A stretch of 64,000 nucleotides of DNA from Candidatus Vecturithrix granuli (GTDB lineage Bacteria > Moduliflexota > Moduliflexia > Moduliflexales > Moduliflexaceae): positions 819,159-883,158 of the forward strand of contig DF820465.1 in the NCBI GenBank assembly GCA_000739535.1, written 5' to 3'. A program made the position numbers and the translations under genes. Shown here in pieces: positions 19,726-45,270 of the stretch. How positions within the stretch are numbered: position 1 is the stretch's first letter; every line of letters begins with the position of its first letter. The notes beneath the pieces are model-generated. The model saw nothing but the letters and a program-made list of their open reading frames with translations. It was not told the DNA's origin and ran no database searches.

Positions 19726-19805
19726 ACCCCACCCCCGGCCCATCCCCCAAAGGAGAGGGGAGCAAGTTCTCCCCTCTCCTTTGGGGGATGGGCCGGGGGT
19801 GGGGT
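19726..19805. repeat. Perfect 36-bp inverted repeat with 8-nt loop
   Basis: Arms 19726-19761 and 19770-19805 are exact complements (outer ends ACCCCACCCCCGGCCC / GGGCCGGGGGTGGGGT) around the loop GCAAGTTC. It lies between the DUF58 stop and the BatD-like start, within an operon, and has no T-run, so it is not a normal intrinsic terminator. It may slow or process the transcript. Related units occur inside the downstream gene (19024-19127). Confidence 0.92.
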
Positions 19806-33031: not shown

Positions 33032-34429
33032 CTATAAACTATCCCCAAAAAGGCCGATCCTCCCAGCGCCCTGACTGGGTTGGCACAGAAAAATATCGGC
33101 ATGTAAGCCGGTGTGAGCTTGATATTCGTCGGCAATTCGCGCCCGAAAGGTCAAAGCGTCATCCGCCTTGATCAGCGCCACAGCACAACCGCCCCAACCG
33201 GCCCCGGCGATTCTGGCTCCCAAAGCCCCTGGACATCGCAGAATACTTTCAATCAAAATATCTAATTCCGGACAACTGGCTTCAAAGTCGTCGCGGATAC
33301 TATGATACGAATCGGTCATCACCTTTCCGAAAGCGTCCATATCTCCGGCTTTCAACAGGTCACAGCCGCGTAACACTCCGGCGTTTTCAGCCAGCACGTG
33401 CCGACAGCGGGGTAAAATGCGCAGAGGATGGGTTGAATCAATCCGGCTTTCTTGAAACAACGTTTCATAGATAGTCGGCTCAAGCTGTTGATGAAGTTCG
33501 GCCAGCGTGATTCTGTCTGGCAGCAAGTCAGCAAGCGAAGTACCGAGCGGAATATCGCGTAGATGAGTGGCCTGTGGAAAATGCGGCCTGAGCAATTCAA
33601 GTCCTATTTTGGTTTCTAACACCCTGGTATTGTATTCAGACGACGCGGATTTTTCCTTTTTAACGTTCGTATTGCACACTGCGACCTGATAGCCCGGCCG
33701 CAACGGGATATGTTCGGTATAAAACGTTGCCTTCCCATCTCTCTCAATCGGGCGGCAATCCAGAAACAGGGCATGGCCTTGTTGGTTGAGAACGGAGGTA
33801 AAATGATCCATAAATCCGCCGCGCGTGCCGACATACCATTCCGCTTCGCCGCAAAAGCGGGCAAACTGTTTCGGCTCCATGCTGATCTGAAATAATTCTT
33901 TCACGGCAACGGCGGTTGCGACCAGCAAGGCTGATGATGAACTCAGACCGGCTGCAACCGGAACGCCATAAGGCGGACGACCATCTACAACCAGATTCAT
34001 GCCTTGCAGAACAGACAGGCCATAATCTCGAACAAAAGCCTGCACAGCGGCTTTGACGTAGTTTTGCCAACTACCTTTATCGCTGCAAGGAATGTCTTTT
34101 TCCAGAAGAAATGTTTGCATGGCAAAGGCCGGATCTGTATTGTGCAGTACAAGTTGCTGATCCTTGCGCTTTCCGGCGACAACCAGAATATCTTTATCCA
34201 ACGCCATGGGCAGCACGTAGCCCTGATGATAATCCGTATGACTGCCCATCAGGTCAACCCGACCCGGCGCTCTGACTATAATCACATCCTGATTACCATA
34301 AATCGCCTGATAAAGGCTCAAAACATGGCGATAGCGCTCGCGCTGCCCGGGGTCGTCTTCGCCATAGATTGCGCAAAGCTGCGGCGCGATTTGCGTGTCA
34401 AAATTTTGGAGAATGTTGGTAATAGTCAT
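33032..34429 (-). CDS. galK: Galactokinase-family (GHMP) sugar kinase
   Basis: 465 residues, longer than the usual ~390. APGRVDLMGSHTDYHQGYVL (residues ~55-74) is the galactokinase signature, GLSSSSALLVATAVA (~residues 163-177) is the ATP-binding GHMP motif, and GARIAGAGWGGCAVALI is the C-terminal motif. The HTDYHQG pattern and VMTDSYHSIRDDFEASCPELD fit galactokinase-type enzymes, which phosphorylate galactose at C1; related arabinose or other sugar kinases cannot be excluded because of the extra length. Monocistronic; its start faces a repeat at 34447. Confidence 0.85.
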   Translation of the reverse strand: MTITNILQNFDTQIAPQLCAIYGEDDPGQRERYRHVLSLYQAIYGNQDVIIVRAPGRVDLMGSHTDYHQGYVLPMALDKDILVVAGKRKDQQLVLHNTDPAFAMQTFLLEKDIPCSDKGSWQNYVKAAVQAFVRDYGLSVLQGMNLVVDGRPPYGVPVAAGLSSSSALLVATAVAVKELFQISMEPKQFARFCGEAEWYVGTRGGFMDHFTSVLNQQGHALFLDCRPIERDGKATFYTEHIPLRPGYQVAVCNTNVKKEKSASSEYNTRVLETKIGLELLRPHFPQATHLRDIPLGTSLADLLPDRITLAELHQQLEPTIYETLFQESRIDSTHPLRILPRCRHVLAENAGVLRGCDLLKAGDMDAFGKVMTDSYHSIRDDFEASCPELDILIESILRCPGALGARIAGAGWGGCAVALIKADDALTFRARIADEYQAHTGLHADIFLCQPSQGAGRIGLFGDSL

Positions 34430-34446: not shown

Positions 34447-34501
34447 GTTCGTAGTAGCCGCTTCAGCGGCCTCTTCAAACGCTGAAGCGTTTACTACGAA
34501 C
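34447..34501. repeat. Nested GTTCGTAGTA palindromic repeat
   Basis: Outer arms GTTCGTAGTA / TACTACGAAC enclose two palindromes, GCCGCTTCAGCGGC and AACGCTGAAGCGTT. Similar units occur at 36484-36543, 45398-45500, 49152-49203, 51459-51502 and 61558-61605. It sits between two minus-strand genes and could fold as a clover-like hairpin. Confidence 0.75.
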
Positions 34502-34507
34502 GAGTTT

Positions 34508-36334
34508 TTACTTCTCTTTTTTCTTCCGCAGTAGGAAGCCGCCGCCGATTACAACAAGCACAACGGCCAATGTTTTGAGCATGACGCTCCAATCGCGCCG
34601 TTCTACAAGTTGAGCTGGCGGTTGATATTGTCCAACAAATTGGTCGGCAAGGTTGTACGCTTCGGCAAGCTGCTGCGCGTAGGGGCGTTTGGCAGCTATC
34701 ATGGCTTTGACAATATCGTATTTTGCTACCAGCGTTGATTCCTGCGTCAAAGCGCGGCTCATGTTTTCAATTGTCAAATCGCGAAACAGCATGATGTCGC
34801 TGCGATGCTGATTGATATAGCCTAAAAACGAATGTTTACCGAATCCGCGATTCAATTGATCTGGCAGCATACTTTCTACATAACCGCACAAGTTGAAATA
34901 GGCCATGCCCTGCTCAAGATCATTTGAAGGCGCCATAAATGAATAGTGCGCCGTAAAAGTGACGTCGGTTTTTGGTCGTCCTTCCCCCACTAATCTTTCC
35001 AGCTCTATCCGTTCATCGTGCGTGGTGCGACACAAGACGGTTCCGATCAGTTCGCTCGTTTGATCCAATTTGCCGTCGCCATTGAGGTCAAAATAATAGG
35101 AATACAACACATCCTGGCCGTAGAACAGAATAAAATCTCGGATATCAATCTGCGCTAATTTGCCATATCTATCATAAATAATGTATCCGCCATTATTATA
35201 TTTATCAAAGGGATAGACCACATTATCCCCTGCGCCGATGTGAAAATGGCGCAGCAAGGGATAACGGCCCGGAAAAAGATCGGCATAATTCTCAACGCGC
35301 AGGCGGATATGCTCGCTTTTACCGAAGAAGGCGTCTTTTACTCGTTCAAGGTAACCCGGTTTGTGCGCCAGGTAAATAGTGCTTTCCTGCGGCAGAATAT
35401 CGAACAATCCATCCTCATACGTCATATAAATCGGCGTTCTGGGAATCTGGACGCTCATCGCCATTGCTTGTCTAACCATGCGTTCACGTTCAGTCTGATT
35501 AATGGTTTGCTGGCTATCCAGGATTCTAATGTGTTCTTGAAATTGATTGCGAGCATTTTCGGTGTCGGGGCTGATCACGTATTGTTCCAGAAACGTTCCG
35601 GCGCGAAAGACTTTGCCCCACCACCAGCCCAGCAGATATTCACGCACTTCCGTCATGAGCGTCTCCATGCGCATAGTGTCGTCGGAAAAGCTGACAACCG
35701 AGACTTCAAGCTCTTTCAAGCCTCGCTCCGGTACGAATTTATAGACGCGATACGATTGGGGCGTTTTCGATGCCCTGTTTGAAATGATTTCGGCAAATTG
35801 TTCTTTAAAATTCAAGCTCCCTCCGATGCGTAAACCGGCCTGCACGATTTCCGGTTTGCGGGTGGCTGAGGCGATCCGGATTTTTTGGGAATCATCCATG
35901 TTAAAATATTCAATATCGTCGCGCACCTCACGGCCGGTAGCAAACAGATAGGTGCCGACTTTGCTTTCCACCCCCCCCTCATAGACCTCAGTTTCCGAAT
36001 ATTGATCCACATTTGCCGCGCCTTTCTTTTCGCTTCCCCCGGCGATATACACCGTATTGGTCGCTCGGAAGAGTACATTGCGCTCCGGATAATTCTGGCG
36101 TTTGGTCAGATAATCTTTGGCGAGCAGGTAAACGCCGCTCAGAACCACGAGCAGCACAAGCAACGCGACAAAAATCCCCCTTTTATGACTGCTGAGAAAG
36201 TCGCCGATAGCATCGGTGATTTTTCCGAAGAAACGCCCGATCTTACCGAACCTTTTCTTGCTTGGGGTTATGTCCGTATCTTGCAAATGTTTCTGCTCGA
36301 TCTTCTTCAACAGATCATCAAATTCTCCTGGCAT
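34508..36334 (-). CDS. Unknown membrane-anchored envelope protein (two terminal TM helices)
   Basis: 608 residues; no family recognised. A short basic cytoplasmic N-terminus (KKRFGKIGRFFGKI) precedes one membrane helix (residues ~57-75, FVALLVLLVVLSGVYLLA). A large extracytoplasmic region follows, with a calcium-loop-like DLNGDGKLDQTSE (D-x-N-x-D-G) at residues ~418-430, and it ends with a second membrane helix (LKTLAVVLVVIGGGFLL) plus a KKKEK tail. The start ATG 36334 has AAAGGAGAACC upstream. Its leader carries a long stem-loop (36355-36464) shared with the gene at 37347, suggesting common control. Confidence 0.6.
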   Translation of the reverse strand: MPGEFDDLLKKIEQKHLQDTDITPSKKRFGKIGRFFGKITDAIGDFLSSHKRGIFVALLVLLVVLSGVYLLAKDYLTKRQNYPERNVLFRATNTVYIAGGSEKKGAANVDQYSETEVYEGGVESKVGTYLFATGREVRDDIEYFNMDDSQKIRIASATRKPEIVQAGLRIGGSLNFKEQFAEIISNRASKTPQSYRVYKFVPERGLKELEVSVVSFSDDTMRMETLMTEVREYLLGWWWGKVFRAGTFLEQYVISPDTENARNQFQEHIRILDSQQTINQTERERMVRQAMAMSVQIPRTPIYMTYEDGLFDILPQESTIYLAHKPGYLERVKDAFFGKSEHIRLRVENYADLFPGRYPLLRHFHIGAGDNVVYPFDKYNNGGYIIYDRYGKLAQIDIRDFILFYGQDVLYSYYFDLNGDGKLDQTSELIGTVLCRTTHDERIELERLVGEGRPKTDVTFTAHYSFMAPSNDLEQGMAYFNLCGYVESMLPDQLNRGFGKHSFLGYINQHRSDIMLFRDLTIENMSRALTQESTLVAKYDIVKAMIAAKRPYAQQLAEAYNLADQFVGQYQPPAQLVERRDWSVMLKTLAVVLVVIGGGFLLRKKKEK

Positions 36335-36354
36335 GATGGTTCTCCTTTAAAAAT

Positions 36355-36464
36355 AGAACTACAGGAATGAAGAATAAGCAAGAATGTATGACATACCAGC
36401 AATCAAATTCTTGCTTATTCTTTATTCTTGTAGTTCTATTGCATCGGGCGAGCAACTATTCATG
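36355..36464 (-). promoter_or_regulatory. Conserved stem-loop leader, copy 1 (upstream of the 36334 start)
   Basis: Arms of 31 bases at 36355-36385 and 36407-36437 (AGAACTACAGGAATGAAGAA and its imperfect complement) fold into a long hairpin 20 bases upstream of the start codon. Outside the hairpin is a conserved tail at 36438-36464 containing CGGGCGAGCA and TTCATG. Copy 2 precedes the gene at 37347 in the same orientation and position. Middle-stem bases differ in a compensated way (GAAGAATAAGC here, GATATATAAGC there). Confidence 0.7.
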
Positions 36465-36483
36465 TTCACTCTTTTGAAACTCC

Positions 36484-36543
36484 TCGTTTATAGTAAACGC
36501 TTTAGCGTTTTCTTACGACGCTGAAGCGGCTGTTAGAAACGAC
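36484..36543. repeat. TCGTTT/AAACGA nested palindromic repeat
   Basis: Palindromes AACGCTTTAGCGTT and GACGCTGAAGCGGC inside short outer arms TCGTTT / AAACGA. Same repeat type as 34447-34501. It abuts the end of the cyclase-family gene. Confidence 0.65.
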
Positions 36544-36547
36544 AAAC

Positions 36548-37165
36548 TTAATCCTGCACCACGACTACCCGGCAGGGCGCTCCGCTGACGCCTGTAAGTC
36601 GCAGCGGGAGAGCAATGAGGTCTCCGCCGGGCTGTACCTGTTTTGCCGCTTCCGGATCAAGGTCTTCAACCAGATAGATGCCCTGTTCGGCAATAAGGCG
36701 ATGAAAGTCCAAGGGATCCCGGTCAAGAACGTGCACAGAACCGGCCAACGCCCAGAGCTTCGCCGGAACCTGGCATAGGGCGCGTAAACAAACCTCACTC
36801 ATATACGCCTGTTTTTGCTGCGAGGCCAGAAAAAGAATCGGCTCGTTGCGGTAGGCGGCGAGCACATCTCCGAGGATAGCCTCAACCCTGAGCGCATCAA
36901 GATCTATCCAGAAGTAGCGGCCGAGCAGATGCTCTATCGGCAGTTGTTCCAGCGTTGCACCGCCTTCGACAAAATGCGCCGGAGCGTCAATGTGCGTGCC
37001 GGTTTGCGTGCCCAACGTCACCTGCGACACCCGGAAACCCTGCTCGTGTACCGAACACCAGGGCTTTATCACCAACTCCGGGTCACGATAATTCTCATCA
37101 TGGTAAATTTCCAGAGTACCATCAAGGATTTTAGTCAAATCTATAATTGTCTTCTTTTCAAGCAT
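36548..37165 (-). CDS. Cyclase-family hydrolase (kynurenine formamidase-like)
   Basis: 205 residues from ATG 37165; the longer reading depends on a TTG at 37210. The metal motif GTQTGTHIDAPAHFVEGG matches the HxGTHxDxPxHF signature of the cyclase/formamidase superfamily (PF04199), with first-shell His and Asp residues at about 50-56. ILFLASQQKQAYMSEVCLRAL and the conserved closing region LIALPLRLTGVSGAPCRVVV agree. Members hydrolyse N-formylkynurenine, isatin and other small amides. The substrate here is unknown. Confidence 0.85.
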   Translation of the reverse strand: MLEKKTIIDLTKILDGTLEIYHDENYRDPELVIKPWCSVHEQGFRVSQVTLGTQTGTHIDAPAHFVEGGATLEQLPIEHLLGRYFWIDLDALRVEAILGDVLAAYRNEPILFLASQQKQAYMSEVCLRALCQVPAKLWALAGSVHVLDRDPLDFHRLIAEQGIYLVEDLDPEAAKQVQPGGDLIALPLRLTGVSGAPCRVVVVQD

Positions 37166-37247
37166 GTTACAATTTTGATGGATCCCTTTCAGGGAAATGA
37201 AGGGAAACAACCAATCTTATTCTGTTAAGTTCTTGTAAAACATACCC

Positions 37248-37302
37248 GTCTCGACTTCGCTCGACATGCGGGATTCCGGTCATCGAGCGAAGTCGAGATG
37301 AC
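37248..37302. repeat. CTCGACTTCGCTCGA inverted repeat, solo
   Basis: GTCTCGACTTCGCTCGAC and TCGAGCGAAGTCGAGATGAC form a long hairpin. The same motif is the core of the 102-bp elements at 22966 and 51501, but here the TATAGCAATCC ends are absent. Confidence 0.8.
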
Positions 37303-37346
37303 AAGATTCGTAGAATTTAACAGTCCTGCGCATTCAAGGGTAAGTT

Positions 37347-38264
37347 TTACCGTCCTCTGGTTAAATCATCAAACCGTTTTTTGCGGTCTTCGCGTTCCTG
37401 TTCGCGGCGTTCTGCTTGTTTCTGCGGATAATTCAGCACATCATCCGCCGTATCTCTGGCAGAGGTGGCGAAATGCTTGAGGTGTGCGAACGCACTCTGG
37501 CCTACCCTGGTCAACTGCGAGGCGGACAAGGAAATTCCCTGTTCAAGCAGGTTATTACGTATCTGCTCCGGCGCTTCATAATTCACAACAACATCTACAA
37601 TATTCGTGCGTTGCAACAATCCTTGGATCGCCTTATCGAGTTTTTTTTCATCGCTGGAGCTAATCAGGAGATTGATAAATTTTTTCAGGCCGTTACCCAG
37701 CCACAATCCCGCCCAGAATGACGGGATTTGATAGAGATTCACCATAATTGTCGCAAAGGGGCTGTATTGCAGCACCGCCGTGTAATAATGGAACCCGAAG
37801 ATCGTGTCATAGAGCACTTCAACCCCGGCCGCCACGCCTAATTTTTGCAGATTGGTCAGCCCATTGATTTTTTCATCTCGAATCAGCGAGGCGAACCATT
37901 GTTTTACCCGTTCAAAAAGCGGAAGTTTCAATTTAGCCAGGCCCGAGGACGTGAGATAATTACGCACTACATTAATATGTTTGGCATATTCGAGCGAATC
38001 TTTGGGAATCGGATGACGCTCTTCCGCCGGCGGCGCGGGGGTTTCAGTTTGCTTCGTGTTAGTCGAGGATTCGGCCGCAGTCTGGACTTGTTGCGCCGGC
38101 TCTGAATCTAAAAGCGCGTCAATCGAAACCAGACATTGTTTTTTGCGTTCCAATCGGCCGGCTTTAGGGTTGGCGACTCTGGAACTCACAAAATCCGCCA
38201 GCGCAAGCACGATTCCTGATCCGGCGTGCGCCAGTGCATCTGTAAACAGCGATTCAATAGCCAT
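37347..38264 (-). CDS. Unknown protein sharing a leader element with the 34508 gene
   Basis: 305 residues; no family recognised. A short N-terminal hydrophobic-to-neutral segment (SGIVLALADFVSSRV), a low-complexity proline/glutamate linker (~residues 62-85), then a hydrophobic middle (LQKLGVAAGVEVLYDTIFG and SPFATIMVNLYQIPSFWAGLWLG, residues ~137-188) that could be one or two membrane-embedded hairpins, and a strongly charged C-terminus (QKQAERREQEREDRKKRF). ATG 38264 with AGGAGA is clear. The shared leader suggests it works with, or is regulated like, the membrane protein encoded at 34508. Confidence 0.5.
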   Translation of the reverse strand: MAIESLFTDALAHAGSGIVLALADFVSSRVANPKAGRLERKKQCLVSIDALLDSEPAQQVQTAAESSTNTKQTETPAPPAEERHPIPKDSLEYAKHINVVRNYLTSSGLAKLKLPLFERVKQWFASLIRDEKINGLTNLQKLGVAAGVEVLYDTIFGFHYYTAVLQYSPFATIMVNLYQIPSFWAGLWLGNGLKKFINLLISSSDEKKLDKAIQGLLQRTNIVDVVVNYEAPEQIRNNLLEQGISLSASQLTRVGQSAFAHLKHFATSARDTADDVLNYPQKQAERREQEREDRKKRFDDLTRGR

Positions 38265-38279
38265 AATGATCTCCTATGA

Positions 38280-38380
38280 AACTACAGGAATTGATATATA
38301 AGCAAGAATCATTCCGAAGAGCATTCTTGCTTATATATCAATCCCTGTAGTTCATTGTGCCGGGCGAGCATACGTTCATG
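38280..38380 (-). promoter_or_regulatory. Conserved stem-loop leader, copy 2 (upstream of the 38264 start)
   Basis: Arms at about 38280-38309 and 38323-38352 (ACTACAGGAATTGATATATA and complement), with conserved tail 38354-38380 containing CGGGCGAGCA and TTCATG. The distance to the start codon (15 bases) and the orientation match copy 1 at 36355. The 38381-38522 stretch beyond it contains a GCGCGAAA...TTTCGCGC hairpin (38401-38421). Confidence 0.7.
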
Positions 38381-38522
38381 AATACCCTTTTGAACTTGTA
38401 GCGCGAAATTATTTTTCGCGCTTGTAGAACAGAGTGTCGTTGTATATTCAAATTTTGGCAAGCAAATAGTAACATAAAAAAATAGGTTGACGAGAATTCT
38501 TCTTTGCGAGAAGATAATAATC

Positions 38523-45084: not shown

Positions 45085-45270
45085 AACAACCTCCTTTATG
45101 AAAACAGCCCTCCGTTTTTTGCGCTCACACGCCGTTTAACAGCTTATGAGCACGCGATTGCACGAACAAACTCATCAGTACACGCCGTTCAAAGAGTGTC
45201 AACTTTTTTTGTCCAAAATTATGGTTTTGCGGAGGGCTGAAAAAATAATTGCCGATATTTATTCGTCCAG

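Follow-up and report, generated by a model that had tools for sequence, protein, structure and literature searches.

Two hairpins upstream of two genes

Two minus-strand genes, 34508-36334 and 37347-38264, lie in the window, the 64,000-nucleotide stretch of 'Candidatus Vecturithrix granuli' DNA analysed here, and each is preceded by a long hairpin. The hairpins are inverted repeats at 36352-36440 (copy 1; arms of 34 nt, 94% complementary) and 38280-38352 (copy 2; arms of 30 nt, 97% complementary), and they are among the five inverted repeats of at least 18 bp within 60 nt that the window holds. They stand 15-22 nt upstream of the starts at 36334 and 38264, in agreement with the 15-20 bases given by a sequence-only reading of this DNA, which had proposed a structured RNA regulator of two co-regulated envelope genes and, as the alternative, a short mobile element. 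On the gene-sense strand the folding z-scores are -6.7 (copy 1) and -8.3 (copy 2), with none of 200 shuffles as good, and the predicted fold leaves the Shine-Dalgarno sequence unpaired in copy 2 and essentially unpaired in copy 1. The outer tail that the two copies were said to share, CGGGCGAGCA-N4-TTCATG, is present exactly at both, and in this exact form it has no third site in the window or the genome. The features of the two loci, with one further module of the same family in the window, are:

36332-36334, minus strand: start codon of gene 34508-36334 (copy 1)
36342-36348, minus strand: AAAGGAG, Shine-Dalgarno sequence and right boundary of copy 1
36352-36440, minus strand: large hairpin of copy 1, module H1, with core AAGCAAGAAT..ATTCTTGCTT
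36434-36463, minus strand: linker ('adaptor') and small hairpin of copy 1, ATGAATAGTTGCTCGCCCGATGCAATAGAA
36464-36475, minus strand: left boundary of copy 1, AAAAGAGTGAAC, a slightly decayed AGGAGTTNNC relative to the family consensus
36486-36542, minus strand: adjoining H6-like palindrome GCCGCTTCAGCG..CGCTAAAGCG, in head-to-tail array with copy 1
38262-38264, minus strand: start codon of gene 37347-38264 (copy 2)
38271-38277, minus strand: ATAGGAG, Shine-Dalgarno sequence and right boundary of copy 2 (TTTCATAGGAG)
38278-38354, minus strand: large hairpin of copy 2, module H1
38351-38379, minus strand: linker and small hairpin of copy 2, ATGAACGTATGCTCGCCCGGCACAATGAA
38380-38391, minus strand: left boundary of copy 2, AAAAGGGTATTC, a slightly decayed AGGAGTTNNC
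38401-38421, minus strand: core GCGCGAAAAATAATTTCGCGC of the H4-like module (a GTAG-type REP-like palindrome) adjoining copy 2
34447-34504, minus strand: additional H6 module, 18 nt upstream of gene 33032-34429

Neither protein has a Pfam match, and no relative of either was found in the 20 genomes searched, so that a leader conserved ahead of two orthologous genes was rejected. A riboswitch, T-box, ribosomal leader or other structured RNA leader of a known family was likewise rejected, since the 64-kb window has no Rfam match that reaches the gathering score. Elsewhere in the window, at 19726-19805, two 37-bp arms form a perfect inverted repeat around a 6-nt loop (ACCCCACCCCCGGCCCATCCCCCAAAGGAGAGGGGAG); this repeat lies outside the hairpin-linker family described below.

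A genome-wide family of two-hairpin units

Strain UASB270 is 'Candidatus Vecturithrix granuli', of the candidate phylum KSB3/Modulibacteria (PMC4312070 Table 1). The genome of this filamentous wastewater bacterium comprises 8,384,694 bases in 21 contigs. A similarity search of the genome, which was not exhaustive, returned about 50 hairpin places, and the core AAGCAAGAAT-N4-34-ATTCTTGCTT occurs at 26 genome sites and at none in the reversed control; the palindromic core of H1 is absent from all 58 other genomes searched. When the core sites were read with their flanks, the outer tail proved to be a constant linker with the gene-sense sequence AGGAG-TTNNC-ATGARC-N4-GCTCACCCGRC-NNN-ATGAA. The strict linker pattern has 64 matches in the genome, none in the reversed control and none in three relatives drawn from its family or order, and a longer linker pattern has no match in GTDB contigs. 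With a shorter pattern, eight single GTDB matches were considered as possible linkers in other species and rejected; they resemble ordinary gene starts (ATG-AGC/AAC-NNG-CTC-ACC) without a following family hairpin. The linker was also considered as a conserved mini-ORF (AGGAG-N5-ATGAGC..), a candidate that fell because the third codon is TGA or TAA in many copies (ATGAGCTGA, ATGAACTGA, ATGAGCTAA) and the length varies.

The repeated unit is about 115-150 nt long, has two hairpins and a fixed polarity, and is built in the order AGGAG-TTNNC, small hairpin (ATGARC-N4-GCTCA), CCCGRCNNN, large hairpin (ATGAAA...TTTCAT), N and AGGAG, followed by the ATG of the gene. The slot of the main linker, between AGGAG and ATGAA, is taken by a second linker type, AGGAGTTATTCATNCGTTTTGGCAAACGCACCACGGCGAATGAAAATT, at three places (L155, 3327; L181, about 2489-2913; L056, about 3395). 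Runs of N, which are assembly gaps, fall inside hairpin arrays at about 117.1 kb and 513.38 kb of the window contig (C19) and at loci L159 and L175, and the true number of units is therefore probably underestimated.

The genes behind family copies are unrelated and include those for a PLP enzyme, a Bmp binding protein, an alcohol dehydrogenase, URO-D, a GH38 mannosidase, a formamidase and a hydantoinase; no common regulon is visible among them. A private regulator common to both window genes would account for a hairpin at the same distance from each and for their exact shared tail, but the same hairpin occurs at dozens of other genes, the tail is the genome-wide linker, and the two proteins have neither a Pfam family nor relatives in the genomes searched. 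The genome-wide distribution already contradicts this reading, which we regard as highly improbable, and the proposal of two co-regulated envelope genes falls with it.

Interchangeable modules and mixed arrays

At least six types of palindromic module fill the slot after the linker, all of them starting with ATGAA and ending with TTTCA. They are H1, the module of both window hairpins; H2, GTGTAGGAAGGAT; H3, CACATAACCAGGGAT; H4, a double GTAG-CGCGAAACTCCAGTTTCGCG forming an inverted palindrome pair; H5, GTACCCCGGACA; and H6, GTAGTAGCCGCTT. Modules are joined in arrays, and in the window an H6-like module precedes copy 1 and an H4-like module precedes copy 2. Neighbours of the same type number 14 of 51, against 16.5 expected if types were independent. 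Without such an excess, tandem duplication of units was rejected, and the arrays look like independent additions. On the window contig, 152 of 159 hairpins are intergenic and the largest cluster contains 36.

Other repeats were noticed in the same material. At about 3050-3200 of L163 an H3 module is split by an element whose end reads GTAGTGGTTAAAT / ATTTAACCACTAC and which has AACAAATC on either side; this looks like an insertion with target duplication, a nested case involving another repeat family. The window contig also bears a second large family of composite palindromes of 60-200 nt, bounded by GGTAGTGGTTAAATGGTAAGTGATG and often containing TCGACTTCGCTC repeats (for example at 45110-45221, 172259-172372 and 829968-830172).

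Boundaries and placement at gene starts

Both edges of the unit carry AGGAG. In 42 linkers without a known module ahead, AGGAG (-10 to -6) is 83-93% conserved and the bases further upstream are near random, which sets the left boundary at AGGAG. On the right, RGGAG follows 96 of the 119 ends of H4 modules. It is still there at 25 of the 36 ends with no called start and no linker ahead of them, and its presence with or without a gene shows that AGGAG lies at the right boundary as well. The next gene has the right AGGAG as its Shine-Dalgarno sequence, and the left one adjoins unrelated sequence.

The next gene lies on the same strand as the unit in 42 of 52 intergenic regions, and within tandem intergenic regions same-strand cases outnumber the others 31 to 7 (p 1e-4). 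Copies are thus not strewn at random in both orientations and between convergent genes, the pattern that the sequence-only reading would have taken as the mark of a repeat. That copies elsewhere always precede genes is true for most, the exception being about one fifth that have no same-strand gene ahead, some of them perhaps beside missed short genes. Of 109 start-adjacent cases, 84 have 12-18 nt between module end and ATG; the set pools modules and includes some weaker H1 matches.

Sampling blind to the repeat covered the window contig and 320 kb of contig C21, most other loci having been picked for holding copies. In this sample 16 of 34 H4 ends are start-adjacent (p 4e-13 against random intergenic placement), as are 16 of 40 H1/H2 hairpins, against 9% (p 2e-7). 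H1 end counts from a permissive pattern were discarded as contaminated by chance matches, and the analysis relied instead on the H4 counts and a hairpin-verified set. An RGGAG Shine-Dalgarno sequence precedes 52 of 59 genes behind H4 as against 177 of 550 genes overall (p 4e-17), the gene caller used giving Shine-Dalgarno motifs a small bonus in the choice of starts.

Covariation and the level of selection

Pairing in the H1 stem is kept while its sequence changes, as had been noticed from the two window copies. Over 22 copies, nine pairs show two-sided change; covariation amounts to 39 cells against 13.5 after shuffling, a value reached by none of 500 shuffles, and slid controls give 3-10. 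Selection on an RNA should leave more G.U than A.C mismatches on the sense strand, and the stem has 37 G.U and 32 A.C (p 0.63). The covariation is real, but it bears no RNA-specific mark, and we do not accept it as proof of RNA function. Some copies are chimeric, with arms from two subtypes. Upkeep of the palindrome in the DNA itself, through single-strand transposition, template switching or recombination, fits at least as well as selection on RNA.

These data bear on the possibility that the hairpin is a selected cis-acting RNA leader, a portable module for translation or mRNA stability that was spread by recombination and is kept for controlling the genes downstream. The same-strand bias with its fixed spacing to ATG, the Shine-Dalgarno sequence left free in the predicted fold and a covariation beyond all shuffles and slid controls are what such a leader would show. 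Against it stand the near equality of G.U and A.C, six unrelated hairpin sequences in one slot, the fifth of copies without a same-strand gene ahead, the unrelated downstream functions and the empty Rfam search of the window. We consider it unlikely. What is supported of the leader proposal is a structured leader directly 5' of genes with its pairing kept; a regulator of two co-regulated envelope genes is not supported.

Comparison with known repeats and transposases

REPs are marked by GT[AG]G at the hairpin foot and by the formation of inverted doublets (PMC6006769). The present family resembles REP, BIME and REPIN sequences in being made of short intergenic palindromes, in high copy and in mosaic arrays, within a genome that has RAYT-like (TnpA-REP) genes, and H4 is an inverted doublet with GTAG at both feet. 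Unlike REPs and REPINs, H1 and the linker begin with ATGAAACTAC and AGGAG..ATGARC and have no GT[AG]G foot, GTAG feet being found in H4 only. The family further differs from REPs in its fixed polarity, in AGGAG at both edges, in several unrelated hairpins per slot and in lying at gene starts rather than ends; the REPs of P. entomophila and S. wittichi are near gene 3' ends (PMC3733652).

Twelve Y1-transposase (Y1_Tnp) matches were found in the genome and none in three relatives. Some have an NPVK/R-GL/Y-V motif, which we take to be RAYT-like. Neither linker nor H1 was found at the gene ends of any of the 12, and none of these transposases could be tied to either part. At L220 a RAYT-like gene lies between GTACCGCGAACCTCCCGGTTCGCGG repeats (1021-1157 and 1826-1898) that resemble H4, as does the flanking GTACCGCGAACC..GGTTCGCGG sequence; this gene is a candidate source of H4 mobility. 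Another RAYT-like Y1 transposase gene, at L218, is flanked by GGAGTGCGAAAGCTCTGCTTTCGC palindromes (1304-1418 and 1974-2196) with about 90 matches across the sampled sequence, and gene and palindromes probably form a REPtron.

A REP/BIME (REPIN) population of the ordinary kind, with a RAYT of the genome as its driver and its position at gene starts a mere effect of intergenic space, would agree with the H4 doublet, the foot and doublets of known REPs and the L220 gene between H4-like repeats. It would not explain the missing GTAG/GTGG foot of H1 and linker, the AGGAG on either side of the unit, or a frequency of units at 5' starts many times that of random placement where the REPs of P. entomophila and S. 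wittichi are near 3' ends, and we think it improbable.

Modular units with repeated inner modules and predicted stem-loops are also known from the BOX elements of Streptococcus pneumoniae (boxA-boxB(n)-boxC), which, like the present units, can be found 5' of genes and may be transcribed together with them; no sequence relation is claimed. Pneumococcal repeats were judged to prefer positions downstream of genes (PMC3049150), unlike the present bias directly upstream of starts with a Shine-Dalgarno sequence at each boundary. Prokaryotic MITEs are likewise small, non-coding, dispersed and without a transposase of their own, and the ATGAAA..TTTCAT ends of the large hairpin correspond to their terminal inverted repeats. 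The units are unlike MITEs in their interchangeable inner hairpins. The candidate for a target-site duplication is the AGGAG on both sides, which may be sequence of the element, and no autonomous partner with matching ends was seen around the 12 Y1 transposases. A limited literature search found no like description of AGGAG-type boundaries.

A probable mobile repeat at the Shine-Dalgarno sequence

Taken together, the observations suggest a mobile repeat landing at gene starts rather than a private two-gene switch. The hairpins are probably a REP/MITE-like mobile two-hairpin repeat sited at, and restoring, the Shine-Dalgarno sequence, any regulation being secondary. The short mobile element once offered as the alternative is thus the better fit, with Shine-Dalgarno anchoring added to it; the mobility, target choice and enzyme of the repeat are what we infer. 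The repeat would spread as a non-autonomous element, probably by way of a folded single strand handled by an HUH-type (Y1/REP-type) transposase. Insertion at AGGAG would fix the orientation and place the element just 5' of a start codon; the inserted unit would rebuild the Shine-Dalgarno sequence on its right edge, and the fresh AGGAG on its left edge would be the target of the next insertion, giving head-to-tail arrays. As a by-product the gene would gain a stable 5' stem-loop leader with the Shine-Dalgarno sequence left free, and this leader may alter mRNA stability or translation.

Insertion at AGGAG is the most economical model, since it explains the orientation, the distance to ATG, both boundaries and the head-to-tail mixed arrays. 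The flanking AGGAG may instead be conserved sequence of the element rather than its target, and an empty-site search of the sampled sequence with 75 joined-flank queries gave matches that all involve other array sequence. We put forward only tentatively, as a reading with somewhat less than an even chance, that the repeat targets the Shine-Dalgarno sequence itself, inserting at AGGAG, rebuilding the ribosome-binding site on the right and supplying a new target on the left, and so building oriented mixed arrays ahead of unrelated genes without silencing them.

A conserved hairpin with compensatory changes 5' of two genes can be a DNA repeat, which calls for caution in reading such leaders. The usual view is that bacteria tolerate palindromic repeats at gene ends, where these are least harmful. 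If the proposed explanation is true, the family would be a clean example of a target preference that renders insertion harmless and, lying at the ribosome-binding sites of many unrelated genes, it could rewrite many 5' leaders together.
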